A stretch of 64,000 nt of DNA from Lelliottia amnigena (GTDB lineage: Bacteria; Pseudomonadota; Gammaproteobacteria; Enterobacterales; Enterobacteriaceae): the NCBI GenBank assembly GCA_900635465.1, contig LR134135.1:2170001-2234000 (forward strand). Reading direction: 5' to 3'. Positions 2,604 to 13,900 of this stretch are shown here, in pieces. Every line of letters begins with the position of its first letter. Position 1 is the first letter of the stretch. The position numbers and the translations under genes are program-made. The notes below the pieces were generated by a model. That model did not search any database, was not told where the DNA came from, and saw only the letters and a program-made list of their open reading frames with translations.

Positions 2604-4307
2604 ATGGACAATAAAGCAAAAAAACATCGTTCCCTTTATATTCCCTATGCGGGACCGGTTCTGCTGGAGTTTTCCCCTGCTGAACAAAGGGAGCGCGTTT
2701 AGCGCCGAAGAGCGCAGCAGCTTCAACCTGCTGGGCTTATTGCCGGAAGTGGTCGAAACCATCGAAGAGCAGGCCGAGCGCGCCTGGATCCAGTATCAGG
2801 GTTTCAAAACCGAAATCGATAAGCACATTTACCTGCGAAACATTCAGGATACTAATGAAACCCTCTTCTATCGGCTGGTGCAAAATCATCTCGAAGAGAT
2901 GATGCCGGGTGATCTACACCCCCACCGTCGGTGCGGCGTGCGAGCGTTTCTCCGAGATTTATCGTCGCTCGCGCGGCGTGTTTATCTCTTACGAGAATCG
3001 CCATAACATGGATGACATTCTGCAAAACGTGCCAAACCACAACATCAAAGTGATCGTAGTGACGGATGGCGAACGTATTTTGGGTCTCGGCGATCAGGGT
3101 ATCGGCGGGGATGGGTATTCCAATCGGTAAACTCTCTCCTGTATACCGCCTGTGGTGGCATCAGCCCGGCGTACACGCTACCGGTCGTACTGGATGTCGG
3201 TACGAACAACCAGCAACTGCTGACCGACCCGCTGTATATGGGCTGGCGTCACCCGCGCGTAACGGACGACGAGTATTACCAGTTCGTCGATGATTTCATC
3301 CAGGCGGTTAAACATCGCTGGCCGGATGTTCTGTTGCAGTTCGAAGATTTTGCGCAGAAAAACGCGATGCCGCTGCTCAACCGCTATCGCGATGAAATTT
3401 GCTCGTTCAACGACGATATTCAGGGTACCGCGGCGGTTACCGCCGGGACGCTGATCGCCGCCAGCCGCGCGGCGGGCAGCCAGCTGAGCTATCAAAAAAT
3501 TGTCTTCCTCGGTGCGGGTTCTGCGGGATGTGGTATTGCAGAGCAGATCATCGCCCAGACTCAGCGCGAGGGGTTAAGCGAAGAGCTGGCGCGTTCACGC
3601 GTCTTTATGGTTGACCGTTTTGGCCTGCTGACGGATGCCATGCCGAACCTGTTGCCGTTCCAGACCAAAACTGGTGCAAAAGCGCGAAAACCTGAAAAAC
3701 TGGGACACCGATAATGAGGTGCTCTCCCTTCTGGACGTCGTGCGTAACGTCAAGCCCGATATCCTGATTGGCGTGTCCGGCCAGACCGGATTATTCACCG
3801 AAGAAATCATTCGCGAAATGCACAAGCACTGCGCGCGTCCGATCGTGATGCCGCTGTCTAACCCGACGTCGCGTGTCGAAGCCACGCCGCAGGACATTAT
3901 CGCCTGGACCGAAGGCAACGCGCTGGTCGCCACCGGCAGCCCGTTTGACCCGGTCATCTGGAAAGACAAAACTCTACCCCATCGCTCAGTGCAACAACTC
4001 CTACATCTTCCCGGGTATTGGCCTGGGGGTGATTGCCTCCGGCGCGTCGCGCATCACCGATGAGATGCTGATGTCGGCAAGCGAAACGCTGGCGCAGCAC
4101 TCACCGCTGGTGAAAAATGGTGAAGGACTGGTTCTGCCGGAACTCAAAGATATTCACATCGTGTCGCGAGCCATTGCCTTTGCCGTCGGCAAAATGGCGC
4201 AGCAGCAGGGCGTGGCGGTGAAGACCTCTGCCGATGCGTTGCAGCAAGCGATCGACGAAAACTTCTGGATGCCGGAATACCGCAGCTATCGTCGTACCTC
4301 GATTTAA
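2604..4307 (+). CDS. maeA: NAD-dependent malic enzyme MaeA, six frameshifts
   Basis: The product converts malate to pyruvate, CO2 and NADH in the cytoplasm. Segments such as [30 protein letters not shown], [39 protein letters not shown], the nucleotide-binding [16 protein letters not shown] and the C-terminal YRRTSI match E. coli MaeA (565 residues) almost exactly. The frame breaks six times, each time by one extra base in a short run: near 2671 (T), 2909 (G), 3108 (G), 3140 (C), 3672 (A) and 3967 (A). Deleting these gives one continuous protein of normal length. Gene order sra-maeA is that of E. coli, but the adhP gene expected downstream is absent. I regard the enzyme as intact in the organism. 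Confidence 0.93.
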
Positions 4308-4325
4308 ACCCGATGCCCAACTGGT

Positions 4326-4344
4326 CCTCTCTACGCAGGAGAGG
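4326..4344. terminator. Hairpin after maeA, possible terminator
   Basis: CCTCTC (4326-4331) pairs with GAGAGG (4339-4344) across a seven-base loop, 18 bases after the maeA stop codon. No T-run follows, so it may stabilise the 3' end or act as a weak terminator. Confidence 0.4.
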
Positions 4345-4450
4345 GTCAGGCACTGATTCGCAACGTCTTCTTGCCCGACTAGCAAAATCCCGCCGACCCC
4401 GTTACACTCCTTTTATCCATTAACTTGATGAATATATAAGGAGGCCAATT

Positions 4451-4534
4451 ATGCTGTACTGTGAAATTTTCAATTTTTCACATACTTTAGGTGATCGCAC
4501 TAGCTCAAGCGTTATCGACTTCATGTTGCGATAA
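4451..4534 (+). CDS. Putative leader peptide (27 residues) of the ABC-F gene
   Basis: A strong Shine-Dalgarno sequence (AAGGAGG, about 4438-4444) precedes the ATG at 4451. The frame reads MLYCEIFNFSHTL then GDRTSSSVIDFMLR and stops at 4534. The second half of this small frame coincides with the 5' arms of a strong hairpin, and its stop codon lies inside the 3' arm. That is the geometry of ribosome-controlled attenuators. The ABC-F gene starts 114 bases further on. No homologue is recalled, so expression is inferred from the ribosome binding site and RNA structure only. Confidence 0.6.
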   Translation: MLYCEIFNFSHTLGDRTSSSVIDFMLR

Positions 4535-4644
4535 CTTCTGCTTGAGCGAAGACACCCTCTACTGAATCCCTTCTCTCGGGCTTACTGAGTTATCGTCAGC
4601 GACGTTTGACGAGGCATTTTCATGCCTGTAACACTTGAGTAAGC
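4503..4644 (+). promoter_or_regulatory. Attenuator-like alternative RNA hairpins before the ABC-F gene
   Basis: GCTCAAGC (4503-4510) pairs with GCTTGAGC (4540-4547), and just inside it GTTATCG (4511-4517) pairs with CGATAAC (4529-4535), giving 15 bp in all. A second copy of GTTATCG at 4589-4595 can pair with the same CGATAAC. GCTTACT (4580-4586) can pair with AGTAAGC (4638-4644), which covers the weak ribosome binding region of the gene starting at 4649; a small hairpin AGGCAT/ATGCCT (4612-4627) lies between. If a ribosome stalled on the leader peptide and blocked 4503-4517, CGATAAC would be free to capture 4589-4595 and open the masked start site. The pairings are seen; the mechanism is inferred. 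Confidence 0.6.
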
Positions 4645-4648
4645 AACA

Positions 4649-6359
4649 ATGAGCACATTACTAACTGCACAATCTTTACGTGTTGATACCGCGTTCACGA
4701 CGCTCTTCGACTCGCTCTCCTTTACCCTGAAAAAAGGCGACCGCATTGGTTTGCTGGGTGATAACGGCTGCGGCAAAAGTACCCTGCTGAAAATTCTCGA
4801 CGGCACTGATTCTCCGGCTGTCGGCACAGTCGCACTCGCCGGACACTGCCTGATGTCGCGCGTCGAGCAGCATCTGCCGGAGGCAATTTATTCCCTGACG
4901 ATGATCGATGCCGTGCTGGCGCAACTCCCCGGCGATTGAGCGCGATAGCCTGCGCTGGAAGGCAGAAACGCTGCTGGCGACAATGGGTTTCACTGCGCCC
5001 GATATGGCGCTGCACTCCGCGACGTTAAGCGGCGGACAACATACGCGTCTGCTGCTGGCTCGCGCGCTAATTAGCGATCCCGATCTGCTGTTATTGGATG
5101 AACCGAGCAATCACCTTGATCTCCCCACCATGCTGTGGCTGGAGCAGTTTTTGCAGAACTGGTCCGGTAGCTTCGTGCTGGTTTCCCACGACAGGCAATT
5201 GCTTGATGCCGTCACCAACGGAAGCTGGATTTTGCGCGATAAAACGCTGCACGCCTTCGCGCTGCCCTGCACTGCGGCACGTCAGGCGCTGGCGGAACGA
5301 GACGAAAGCGACGCCCTGCGGCATAAAGCGGAGCAAAAGGAGATTGATCGTGTTGCGGCGAGCGCAAAACGGCTGGCGACCTGGGGCAAGGTCTACGACA
5401 ACGAAGATCTGGCCCGCAAAGCCAAACAGATGGAAAAACAGGTCGAGCGCTTAAAGGAGAGTCAGACCGATCTCACCGTGGGCAGCCCGTGGACGCTCAC
5501 GCTCAGAGGTGATGCGCTGCGCGCGGATCGCTTGCTGGAGATGCAACATCTTGCCGTTCCACCTGCGCCTGGGTTAACGCCTCTGTTTAACGTTGACATT
5601 GCCCGGCTAAAAAGCGGCGATCGCATCGCGATTATGGGGCGCAATGGCTGCGGTAAATCTTCGCTGATGAAGCTTATCTGGCGACAATTTACCGCCGGGC
5701 AAGACACGGATGAGCTGAAAATCCACCCGCGTGTCACGCTGGGGTATTACGACCAGACGCTGCATCAGCTGCCGGATGACGCGCTGCTGCTGGACGCACT
5801 TGAACCGTTCGCGCCCGATCCGCAGGTCCGCAAAATGGCGCTGATTAGCGCAGGTTTTCCGTGGGCGCGACACGAGCAAAAAGTCTCAACGCTCAGCGGT
5901 GGCGAACGTTCACGTCTGCTGTTTGTCGGACTCACGCTTGCCCACTACAGCCTGCTGATGCTTGACGAGCCGACCAACCACCTGGATATGGAAGGTAAAG
6001 AGGCGCTGGCCGACACGCTGCAACAGTTTGAGGGCGGCGTGCTGCTGGTGAGTCATGACCGGCAGTTAATCCGTCAAAGCTGTAATCGATTCTGGCTGGT
6101 CGAGGATGGAAAACTGAGCGAATGGCACGATGCCGACGCGGTCTTTGAACGGCTGCGCGAAAGCAGCGGCCTGAAACCGATCGCCACGTCGCGATCTGTT
6201 GAAGAGGATCGCCTGCCGGAATGCGACGATCTGCTTGAACGGCTGGTGACGCTCGAATCGTTGCTGGCGGAGGATTTGGCGCGTAAGCCGAAGCATCAAA
6301 AACCTCAGCTTCAGGAACAGTGGCGAAAGGAGATTAAAATTCTGGAAGCCCAGATGTAA
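4649..6359 (+). CDS. ABC-F family ATPase (ribosome-associated type), one frameshift
   Basis: The roughly 569-residue product has two ABC ATPase domains and no membrane segments, the ABC-F plan. Domain 1 shows Walker A GDNGCGKST (about residue 37), signature LSGGQHTRLLLARAL and Walker B LLLLDEPSNHLDL. A charged linker follows (LARKAKQMEKQVERLKESQ). Domain 2 has GRNGCGKSS, LSGGERSRLLF and LLMLDEPTNHLDM. Known ABC-F proteins act on the ribosome as translation factors or antibiotic-protection proteins. Which class this is cannot be told by eye; it is not one I recognise as Uup, EttA, YheS or YbiT. One extra C near 4927 breaks the frame (CTCCCCGGCG for CTCCCGGCG). The long leader with a small ORF argues for control by ribosome stalling. 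Confidence 0.85.
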
Positions 6360-10949: not shown

Positions 10950-13900
10950 TTACACTTTCTCGATGTTAACCAGAAACGCCTTATATTCCGGCGTTTGCGA
11001 GTTGGCATCGCCGACGTTTGGCGTCAGGGTATTGGCGATATAGCCCTTCTGCGCCACCCCTTCAAAGCCCCAATGCAGCGGAATACCCACGGTTTCCACC
11101 TGCTGACCGTTAACCTGTAACGTTTGCAGACGGCGCGTTACGACCGCGACCGCGCGAATAAAGCCGCGCTTGCTGCTCACCGTGACGCGATCGCCGTTAG
11201 CGATCCCCTTCGCTTTCGCCAGCGTTTCGCTGATTTCCACCAAACTGTTCCGGCTGCGCGATCGCGTTAAGCCGCGCGTGTTTGGTCCAGGTGTGGAAAT
11301 GCTCGGTCAGGCGATACGTGGTCCCGACGTACGGGAACTTATCTTTCTTGCCGAGGCGCAGTGCGTCGTCTTCATACAGGCGAACGACCGGGCTTGAAAC
11401 CACGTTCGGGTGCAGCGGGTTGGTGCCGAGCGGCGTTTCCATCGGCTCGTAATGTTCCGGGAATGGCCCTTCGGCGAGCTTATCGAGCGCAAACAGCCGC
11501 CCAAGCCCTTCCGGCTGCATGATAAACGGCCCGGTTGCGCTGCCTGGCGCGGCAGTGTTGTAGTCAGGAATATCGTTACCTGCCCACTTCGTGCCGTTCC
11601 ATTCAATCAGCATCCGTTTAGGATCCCACGGCTTACCGTTGATATCCGCCGAGGCACGGTTGTACAGCACGCGACGGTTGAGCGGCCACGCCCACGCCCA
11701 AACCGAGCGTATTGCCGAGACCCGACGGATCGGCATTATCGCGGTTGGCCATCTGGTTGCCCTGTTCCGTCCAGCTTCCGGCGTAGATCCAACACGACGA
11801 TGCGGTTGAACCGTCATCGCGCAGCAGCGCAAAGCTGTTCAGCAACTGCCCTTTTTTCGCCAGCAGAACACCGTTGGCGTCATAGAGATCCGCCAGCGCC
11901 ACGCCGTTGTTCTCTTTCGCCACCTCTTCCGATTCAGGATGATCCGGCTGCTTATAGTTCCAGCTCATCTTCAGCAGCGGTTCGACGCCTTTACCGCCTT
12001 CTGTGCGATACATTTCGCGCAGACGGTGGTAAATCCCGGCCAGAATTTCGCCGTCGTTCCGCGCTTCACCCGGCGCATCCTGGCCTTTCCAGTGCCACTG
12101 TAACCAGCGCCCGGAGTTGGCAATCGAGCCGTCTTCTTCTGCAAAGCAGGTCGACGGCAGACGGAACACTTCGGTCTGAATCGACGCCCGTATCCACATC
12201 GTTCATCTCGCCGTGGTTCTGCCAGAAGTTCGACGTTTCAGTGACCAGCGGATCGATAACCACCATGTATTTCAGCTTGCTTAAGCTGCGCACCACTTTG
12301 TTTTTGTCCGGGAACGACGCGACGGGGTTAAAGCCCTGGCAGATATAGCCCGTCACGTTGCCTTTATCCATCATGTTGAAATACTTGGATGACGTCGTAG
12401 GCCTGATCCCATTTTGGTAGCCAGTCAAAGCCCCAGTCGTTCTCTTTCTGCGCTGCATCGCCATAAAACGATTTCATCAGGCTCACGAAGAACTTCGGAT
12501 AGTTACCCCCAGTAATTCACCTGATCGGCAAGCGTCGCTTTCGGCGTATTCGCGGTGAGATAGGTTTGCAGATCGGCGTGCTTATCGGACGGCAGGCTCA
12601 GATACCCGGACAGGCTGGTGGACAGCAAACCGAGATCGGTTTAACCCTGAATATTGGAGTGTCCGCGCAGGGCATTTACGCCGCCGCCGGCCATGCCCAT
12701 ATTCCCCAGCAGCAGCTGAATCATCGCCATGGTGCGGATGTTCTGTTGGCGCCAACCGTATGCTGTGTTCCAGCCGAGCGCATACAGGAACGTTGTAGTT
12801 CGGTTAGCCGCGCTGGTGGACGCGAGCACTTCACAGATTTTCAGGAAATCGGCTTTTCGGCGTACCGCAGATATTTTCCAACCACATCTGGCGTATAACG
12901 GGAAACGTGCTGTTTCAGCAAGTTCCATACGCAGCGCGGATCGGTCAGGGTTTCATCGCGTTTAGCAAAACCATTTTTCGTCGAACTGATAGTTCCAGGA
13001 CGATTTGTCGTACTGCCGTTTTTCAGCGTCATAGGCCGCTGAACAGGCCGGTCATCAAAGGCAAAGTCTTCCCGCACCAGCAGATTGGCGTTGGTGTAGT
13101 GTTTGACATATTCGGCGTTGATTTTGTTGTTTTCGATCAGATACAGCAGCACGCCAGACAGGAACGTAATGTCCGTACCGGAACGAATAGGCGCATAAAT
13201 ATCGGCTACCGAGGCCGTACGCGTGAAGCGTGGATCGACGACGATCAGCGTCGCATCGTTATTGTTTTTCGCTTCCATCGCCCAGCGGAATCCCACTGGA
13301 TGGGCTTCGGCAGCGTTACCGGCCCATCACCATCACGACGTTTGCGTTTTTGATATCAACCCATGTGGTTGGTCATCGCACCGCGACCAAATGTTGGAGC
13401 AAGACTTGCTACCGTTGGTCCGTGTCAGACGCGCGCCTGGTTGTCTACCGCCAGCATGCCGAGTGAACGCACGAATTTTTGCGTCAGCATGCCCGTTTCA
13501 TTGCTTGCCGCTGGAGGCGCACAGCATCCCGGTGGACAGCCAGCGGTTGACGGTTACGCCCTGCGCATTCTTCTCGATAAAGTTGGCGTCACGGTCGGCT
13601 TTCATTAATTTCGCGATCCGGGAAAACGCCTCGTTCCAGGAAATACGCTGCCATTTATCGGAACCTGGCGCACGGTATTCCGGATAACGCAGTCGATTAT
13701 CGCTGTGAACATAATCCAGCAAACCCGCGCCTTTCGGGCACAGCGCCCCACGGCTGACCGGATGATCCGGATCCCCTTCGATATGATAAATCGCTTCTTT
13801 GGCGTTCTTTCGCGCCATCGCCCAGGCTATACATCAATAGCCCACATCCCACGGAGCAGTATGTGCAGGTGTTACGGATCTCTTTTGCGCGCAGCAATTT

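Follow-up and report, generated by a model that had tools for sequence, protein, structure and literature searches.

The leader of the ABC-F gene

The window analysed here is a stretch of 64,000 nucleotides (nt) from the 4.47-Mb genome of Lelliottia amnigena (contig LR134135.1, positions 2,170,001 to 2,234,000), and all coordinates refer to it. It carries a gene for a protein of the ABC-F family, preceded on the plus strand by an open reading frame (ORF) of 27 codons, which starts at an ATG at 4451, ends with the TAA at 4532-4534 and would encode the peptide MLYCEIFNFSHTLGDRTSSSVIDFMLR-stop (4451-4534), with Ser-Ser-Ser at codons 18-20. Four RNA segments of this leader region can pair in mutually exclusive ways (Table 1). 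We consider it highly probable that the region is a ribosome-mediated translational attenuator of the erm type, with a double lock in front of the ABC-F gene. A first-pass annotation of this DNA had already recognised the 27-codon leader and its strong ribosome-binding site, both of which are present, and had compared the layout with that of erm attenuators, a likeness that the conserved leader frame and the exclusive helices support.

Table 1. Features of the leader region and of the ABC-F gene in the window
Feature	Position	Strand	Basis or remark
-10-like hexamer TACACT	4403..4408	+	promoter of the leader transcript inferred
Leader ribosome-binding site TAAGGAGG	4437..4444	+	sequence; GGAG 5' of the leader throughout the 76 extracted loci (GGAGA in L092)
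27-codon leader frame	4451..4534	+	26-28 codons in 75/76 loci
Small in-leader hairpin, 4460-4465 with 4477-4482	4460..4482	+	84.7% of cells paired, both-side change in 4/6 pairs
Segment 1, codons 18-23; 5' arm of the 1:2 hairpin, alternative partner of the ABC-F ribosome-binding site	4503..4517	+	1:2 and 1:4 pair counts
Segment 2a, over the last leader codons and stop; partner of segment 1 (4529-4535) or 3b	4525..4535	+	pair counts, RNAalifold
Segment 2b, partner of segment 1 or 3a	4540..4551	+	pair counts
Segment 3a, partner of 2b	4570..4581	+	CTCGGGC in most enteric rows, CTCAAGC in L092-L095 and L097
Anti-ribosome-binding-site GCTTACT, segment 3 side of 3:4	4580..4586	+	3:4, 78.0% of cells paired
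Segment 3b GTTATCG-T-CAGC, pairs with 2a, one base bulged	4589..4600	+	2:3 pair counts
Local hairpin CGTCA/TGACG within the 3:4 fold	4594..4611	+	94.9% of cells paired, both-side change in 1/5 pairs
Local hairpin AGGCAT/ATGCCT	4612..4627	+	86.5% of cells paired, both-side change in 4/6 pairs
Segment 4 CTTGAGTAAGC, carries the ABC-F ribosome-binding site	4634..4644	+	complementary to segment 1 (CTCAAG) and to 4580-4586
ABC-F gene, frame broken in the assembly within 4908-4939	4649..6359	+	ORFs 4649-4939 and 4908-6359 overlap

Comparison with relatives was based on 76 extracted stretches running from the leader ribosome-binding site to the ABC-F start, 75 of which were aligned (alignment A1); L096 was left out of the alignment, and its genome does carry the element. 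Several rows were dropped: L001 duplicates L002, L021 lies where L059 does, L014 repeats the stretch of another row, L080 is the broken frame of the window itself, and L081 and L083-L090 come from genomes already represented. The starts of L010 and L053 were set by hand, L036, L038 and L043 were trimmed, and a downstream start was rejected for L101-L109. L029, whose leader is frameshifted, belongs to A1 and was excluded from alignment A2 (53 of 54 thinned sequences) and from the footprint runs described below (74 of the 75 rows of A1).

The leader frame measures 26, 27 or 28 codons in 75 of the 76 loci (all except L029), the groups being separated by one in-frame length difference of 3 nt. Ribosome-binding site, start codon and frame length are kept in these same 75, from Enterobacteriaceae to Vibrio, Photobacterium and Aeromonas, and the leader is presumably translated. 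A serine stands nine codons before the stop (eight before the last sense codon), at codon 19 or its equivalent, in 75 of 75 leaders; several non-enteric rows have this single serine in place of the run (RSR, CSC). At the C-terminus, the penultimate Leu and the last Arg are each found in 74 of the 75, with Val or Ala before them in 72, and 17 of the 19 order-level loci that entered the alignment have leaders ending in I-A-L-R-stop or I-V-L-R-stop. Among codon differences, the synonymous share in codons 2-16 is 19.4%, versus 13.7 and 14.8% in the other frames; in codons 17-27 it is 5.2%, versus 26.3 and 23.6%. Because so few of the differences are synonymous in codons 17-27, RNA pairing dominates there.

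Upstream of the leader, a TAnnnT hexamer lies 33-52 nt (mostly 44-50) 5' of the ATG in 66 of 75 loci, TACACT being the commonest, a count made without a chance control. A consensus scan of 4300-4700 gave no full sigma-70 site. No intrinsic terminator was found in the same interval, which was scanned in the window only, and a transcription attenuator of the msrD or vmlR type was rejected on the absence of a terminator-like site between leader and gene in 4300-4700. We also discarded a micro-frame just 5' of the ABC-F start (MPVTLE, 4622-4642), which was left outside the model because its ATG is retained in only 26 of 57 loci.

Alternative helices and compensatory changes

The 15-bp hairpin of the first-pass annotation (4503-4517 with 4529-4547) was recovered: segment 1 pairs with 4529-4535 and 4540-4547 of segment 2 (1:2), leaving a bulge of 4 nt. 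The motif GTTATCG, which had been thought to give the inner 3' arm a second partner, does recur at 4511-4517 and 4589-4595, but the second helix measures 22 bp and not 7; it joins segments 2 and 3 (2:3) by pairing 4525-4535 with 4589-4600 and 4540-4551 with 4570-4581. The proposed complementarity of GCTTACT (4580-4586) to AGTAAGC (4638-4644) in front of the ABC-F start (3:4) also holds. Moreover, segment 1 can pair directly with the ABC-F ribosome-binding site (1:4; 4503-4514 with 4629-4640). The region 4440-4660, which had been put forward for folding, is very stable (-63.1 kcal/mol, z -3.1; none of 200 dinucleotide shuffles was as stable), but its lowest-energy fold is not the pair of hairpins first described: in it, segments 2 and 3 are joined, and segment 1 is bound to the ABC-F ribosome-binding site.

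Comparative pair counts are well above chance for 2:3 and for the set made of 1:2, 3:4 and the three local hairpins. In 2:3, 95.3% of cells are paired, versus 30-48% when the columns are slid by 1-3, and both sides have changed in 8 of 22 pairs, versus 2.8 in shuffles, with none of 500 shuffles reaching that number. Its two parts, 2a:3b (99.1% of cells paired) and 2b:3a (91.4%), each show both-side changes in 4 of 11 pairs. For the set of 1:2, 3:4 and local hairpins, 86.4% of cells are paired, versus 25-40% after sliding, and 87 cells carry double changes, versus 32.7 in shuffles; within it, the outer part of 1:2 reaches 95.3% and the inner part 79.3%. The direct pairing 1:4 has 87.8% of cells paired and 20 double-change cells, versus 5.3 in shuffles. 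The control by slid columns (1-3 columns) retains relatedness, and gives 22-48% of cells paired over the three pairing sets. In typical exchanges, GCTG/CAGC becomes GTTG/CAAC in 2a:3b, and CTCAAG/CTTGAG becomes CTCAGG/CCTGAG in 1:2. Run on the 75-row alignment, RNAalifold chooses 2a:3b and the hairpin at 4612-4627. The in-leader hairpin (4460-4482) cannot readily be made out by eye in the Aeromonas-type rows L101-L109.

Both mutually exclusive arrangements, 1:2/3:4 and 2:3, are conserved, and both-side changes, which the first-pass annotation had named as support for all three pairings, were found in each of them, the fewest being in 3:4 (2 of 7 pairs, 4 cells). Judged from the aligned loci, the attenuator architecture is real and conserved, and the same comparison documents, at the level of sequence, the leader frame, the four segments, their compensatory changes and their association with the ABC-F gene.

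Leader ribosomes and the exposure of segment 4

From the putative upstream promoter, a transcript would be produced that carries the 27-codon leader frame behind its strong ribosome-binding site. As long as leader ribosomes move freely, segment 4 would be masked in either of two ways. In the first lock, segment 1 would pair with segment 2, so that segment 3 masks segment 4; 1:2 could form while only segments 1 and 2 exist. In the second lock, segment 2 would pair with segment 3 and segment 1 itself would mask segment 4, an arrangement predicted to prevail in the completed RNA at equilibrium. A ribosome halted at about codons 18-20, for which ribosome-targeting drugs would be the likely cause, would let segment 2 pair with segment 3 and leave segment 4 unheld, and the ABC-F would be translated. 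Both locks would fail together because the halted ribosome covers segment 1. Compared with the layout first proposed, the refinements are that segment 1 would itself mask the ABC-F site, as a second lock, and that sensing is predicted in the later middle of the leader and not at its ends.

For 74 sequences, we modelled folding while a ribosome footprint occupied each codon in turn, and read out the exposure of segment 4. The modelled mean exposure is 0.27 in free RNA. A P site at early codons gives 0.26-0.31 and one on the last sense codon 0.25; the peak, 0.54-0.56, is reached 7-9 codons before the last, at about codons 18-20. At 7 codons before the last, the gain is 0.29, versus 0.01 in 740 shuffles, and a smaller footprint gives a similar result. 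In the window sequence, the exposure goes from 0.16 in free RNA to 0.49-0.51 at 8-9 codons before the last. Mean pair probabilities in free full-length RNA are 0.62-0.63 for 2:3, 0.58 for 1:4, 0.19 for 1:2 and 0.21 for 3:4; with only segments 1 and 2 present, 1:2 prevails (0.67). From these modelled probabilities and exposures, it seems that both folds hide the site and that a mid-leader ribosome would defeat both, so that stalls in this part of the leader are predicted to expose segment 4.

Several results weigh against this reading. On the comparative side, the shuffle controls for the pair counts (500 shuffles) ignore relatedness; the number of pair types in the set of 1:2, 3:4 and local hairpins is not above that of shuffles (273 of 500 reach it); 1:4 has 3 covarying pairs, versus 2.8 in shuffles (295 of 500 reach it); and 3:4 is the weakest of its set, with 78.0% of cells paired, which is explained in part by rows L092-L097, where a shifted pairing (CTCAAG with CTTGAG, by eye) can hide the site. 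The constraint on the leader at the peptide level is weak, and the invariant serine sits within paired sequence. On the modelling side, the optimum is broad, exposure still being 0.36-0.48 with the P site 3-6 or 10-14 codons from the last. With the P site 7 codons from it, 11 of 74 sequences gain no exposure or lose some, the window sequence itself (0.16, free 0.16) showing no gain, and no more than 47 of 74 do better than every one of their ten shuffles. As soon as segment 3 is present, 2:3 (0.47-0.52) already exceeds 1:2 (0.32) at equilibrium, and the fold with 1:2 and 3:4 may be minor for that reason. Finally, a family member (L233, G160) carries an ABC-F of 44% identity without such a leader. 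By eye, the upstream region of this locus is AT-rich and holds a different inverted repeat.

Concerning what halts the ribosome, our leading guess, a tentative one, is a context-dependent peptidyl-transferase drug of the chloramphenicol kind. It is suggested by the serine found nine codons before the stop in 75 of 75 leaders, at the modelled optimum; chloramphenicol stalls ribosomes mainly after alanine, serine or threonine, a statement for which the available portion of PMC12121999 cites others. It remains a guess because the serine codon lies in a pairing arm and the peptide constraint is weak elsewhere. Two of the alternatives, the toiL-like sensor and the arrest at the stop codon, are other triggers of the same attenuator, so that the likelihoods we give to them and to the chloramphenicol-kind guess overlap.

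The first is possible, and we hold it with reserve: the leader would be a general sensor of translation stress, like toiL in front of topAI in E. coli, in which segment 1 masks the downstream site directly and any ribosome that slows down on segment 1 unmasks it, irrespective of the drug and with no need for a particular nascent peptide. In full-length RNA, 1:4 is indeed the main lock (0.58), and the weak peptide constraint fits. In its accessible part, PMC12121999 describes toiL as an enterobacterial upstream ORF (uORF) whose pairing with the downstream Shine-Dalgarno (SD) sequence is released when ribosomes stall, with a response to at least five drug classes. However, that part of the source describes a toxin-antitoxin pair downstream of toiL and no helix like 2:3, and in the present element this competing helix, superfluous for a simple leader-to-SD lock, is the best conserved part; early-codon stalls, moreover, are not predicted to open segment 4.

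An msrDL-like arrest of the nascent peptide at the stop codon (I-V/A-L-R-stop), with a macrolide-like drug blocking release, is improbable. The Leu (74 of 75), the Arg (74 of 75) and the Val or Ala (72 of 75) before the stop are what it would build on, and in msrDL, the residues N-3 and N-2 at the stall are Leu and Ile (PMC12121999). Yet a ribosome at the stop would cover 2a, block 2:3 and free segment 1 to mask segment 4; the modelled exposure is then 0.25, about that of free RNA, and the conserved codons double as the 2a pairing arm. It is very unlikely that the attenuator senses charged serine tRNA during starvation instead of drugs: the Ser-Ser-Ser run of the window, the serine at the codon 19 equivalent in 75 of 75 leaders and its coincidence with the exposure optimum would suit such a device, but several non-enteric rows have the single serine (RSR, CSC), and an ABC-F is no serine pathway gene. 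We give the same very low likelihood to a conserved 5' structure that works without control by the leader, for instance in mRNA stability or in protein binding, and in which the frame is incidental. The excess of RNA over peptide constraint would favour it; it is contradicted by the conservation of both mutually exclusive helices and by 75 of 76 loci retaining the ribosome-binding site, the start codon and the length of the frame.

Known leaders, distribution and the ABC-F protein

In the erm(C)-type scheme, a translated leader goes with four segments that pair as 1:2 and 3:4 or as 2:3, and a stalled ribosome unmasks the downstream site. The leader of msrD, msrDL, has six codons. The element upstream of our ABC-F shares with the erm(C) type a leader frame, presumably translated, the four segments and the alternative helices, and its downstream ribosome-binding site is likewise predicted to be masked until the leader stall. 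It differs in that it would control a Gram-negative ABC-F and that its segment 1 can also pair with segment 4, and the stall, placed at codon 9 in ermCL, is predicted at about codons 18-20 here. The proposed mechanism fits the erm kind, the second lock and the predicted mid-leader sensing point being its new features. The ABC-F genes vmlR, cplR and lsa(A) are controlled by uORFs (PMC9226507, PMC10201436), with mutually exclusive RNA folds and SD masking for vmlR and cplR; those uORFs have 3-4 codons (MIN, MR[I/M], MAGN), versus 26-28 here, and vmlR and cplR have intrinsic terminators, none of which was found here. The inducers of vmlR and cplR likely stall ribosomes at start codons, as far as the available part of PMC12121999 goes. 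With msrDL-msrD, the element would have in common the control of an ABC-F gene by a leader peptide, whereas msrD is regulated by transcription attenuation through a terminator, the stall being due to cladinose macrolides (PMC10314930).

By DNA search with 381 bases, the region is present in 57 of 246 family genomes, its own included, and blastn with 461 bases gave no match in an E. coli collection of 20,395 records (described as 5,426 genomes). At the order level, a protein search found the ABC-F in 32 of 295 genomes, 31 of which carry the element. A covariance model built from 53 sequences has a single match in the window (148 bits), finds the element once each in 44 of 394 order-level genomes, and is followed by the ABC-F in all 30 loci returned among these 44 matches. 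The genome-wide searches with RNA models used stricter filters, with weak matches lost; at class level, the model recovered only the window's own genome (1 of 339), as did the protein search at E 1e-90 (1 of 369). The model was also run on named loci, the best 80 of the 200 found, and all 80 have the element 5' of the ABC-F; they include Enterobacter, Lelliottia, Citrobacter, Klebsiella pneumoniae, Raoultella, Kosakonia, Leclercia, Kluyvera, Cedecea and Buttiauxella. The closest ABC-F proteins among these 80 are from Lelliottia (88%) and Enterobacter (up to 86%), records very near the window having perhaps been left out.

Ten records chosen from 40 matches in a plasmid collection, several of them chromosome-sized, all carry the element: two Vibrio, Photobacterium, Aeromonas caviae, Morganella, Proteus, Pantoea, Rahnella, Klebsiella and one labelled Pseudomonas silvicola. 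In each of the searches of named loci and plasmid records, 3 weak minus-strand matches of the model overlap true sites and were ignored. Plasmid matches at E up to 10 from Listeria, Sinorhizobium, Campylobacter, Enterococcus and Paraclostridium were taken as chance (11-16% query coverage; 60 of 67 rows).

The leader lies directly 5' of the ABC-F in the aligned loci, and no case of the element before another gene was seen among the loci whose downstream side was inspected. The next-upstream neighbour, in 19 relatives with an open ABC-F frame, is a frame of 565-611 amino acids in six and other frames elsewhere; neighbours vary among relatives and therefore leader and ABC-F stay together. Four records have gene tables covering the place, and these tables, which are incomplete, list no gene over the leader. 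Rfam gave no match at gathering score near the leader and, at E up to 10, a single match in 4380-4700 (E 6.7).

The ABC-F frame is open, with 568-581 amino acids, in 19 of 20 relatives examined (L063 having no frame). A same-genus ABC-F (L060) scores 322.6 bits with the ribo_prot_ABC_F model (cut-off 380) and stays under the NCBIfam cut-off for all 25 families listed of 196. Named antibiotic resistance (ARE) families were rejected on this basis (Sal 280.1 of 725 bits, Msr 226.7 of 680), as were the housekeeping families: EttA (219-220 of 599/807), Uup (308 of 900), PRK10636 (222.5 of 917) and PRK15064 (227.7 of 762), the last two of which we take to be YheS and YbiT. The window's own genome holds separate PRK10636-, Uup- and EttA-like genes. 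The linker has 147 residues between motifs in the relatives where both were found, versus 138 in two paralogues, the motif search having failed in most rows.

By its distribution alone, the ABC-F matches subfamily PAF1, which was predicted in 2019 to be a novel ARE and which the accessible part of that survey reports from Vibrio, Enterobacter, Klebsiella, Citrobacter and Serratia, not from Escherichia (PMC6723617). Four of the five genera were seen here and the E. coli collection had no match, Serratia and the other Escherichia species falling outside the named comparison. The main text of the survey, in its available portion, contains neither the term 'uORF' nor any mention of a leader (PMC6723617). 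In the open-licence literature, we found no follow-up of PAF1 after that survey and, among publications on ABC-F leaders in Gram-negatives, no leader for this ABC-F. The protein may serve in resistance or in ribosome rescue. Its conserved and apparently stall-responsive leader would be independent evidence that the PAF1 ABC-F, which is present in Klebsiella, Enterobacter, Citrobacter, Vibrio and Aeromonas, answers ribosome inhibition. We can go one step further, on a reading to which we give slightly less than an even chance: the element would represent a conserved, so far unrecognised family of drug-sensing RNAs in Enterobacterales, Vibrionaceae and Aeromonadaceae that controls the PAF1 ABC-F and amounts to inducible, intrinsic ribosome protection in Gram-negatives. 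Its double lock would open only for ribosomes halted mid-leader at the invariant serine, as for a context-specific peptidyl-transferase inhibitor, unlike the start- and stop-codon stalls of known ABC-F leaders.

Some further observations concern single loci. A 50.6-kb Morganella plasmid (L223, leader at 2506) carries the ABC-F with a diverged leader ending in N-A-V-R, and the cassette can therefore be plasmid-borne. At L059, a partial second copy of the promoter and the first half of the leader lies about 1.3 kb 5' of the complete copy (about 1461-1543 and 2803-3135, reverse complement), with other sequence between, as if duplicated by an insertion. In the window, the upstream gene at 3238-4307, which we take for a malic enzyme, falls into several overlapping frames; errors of base calling in this assembly would account for its broken frames and for the interrupted ABC-F. 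The only Rfam match in the whole window lies elsewhere, on the minus strand at 13372-13430: it is the selenocysteine insertion element RF01989 (SECIS_3), which would presumably fit a formate dehydrogenase gene.
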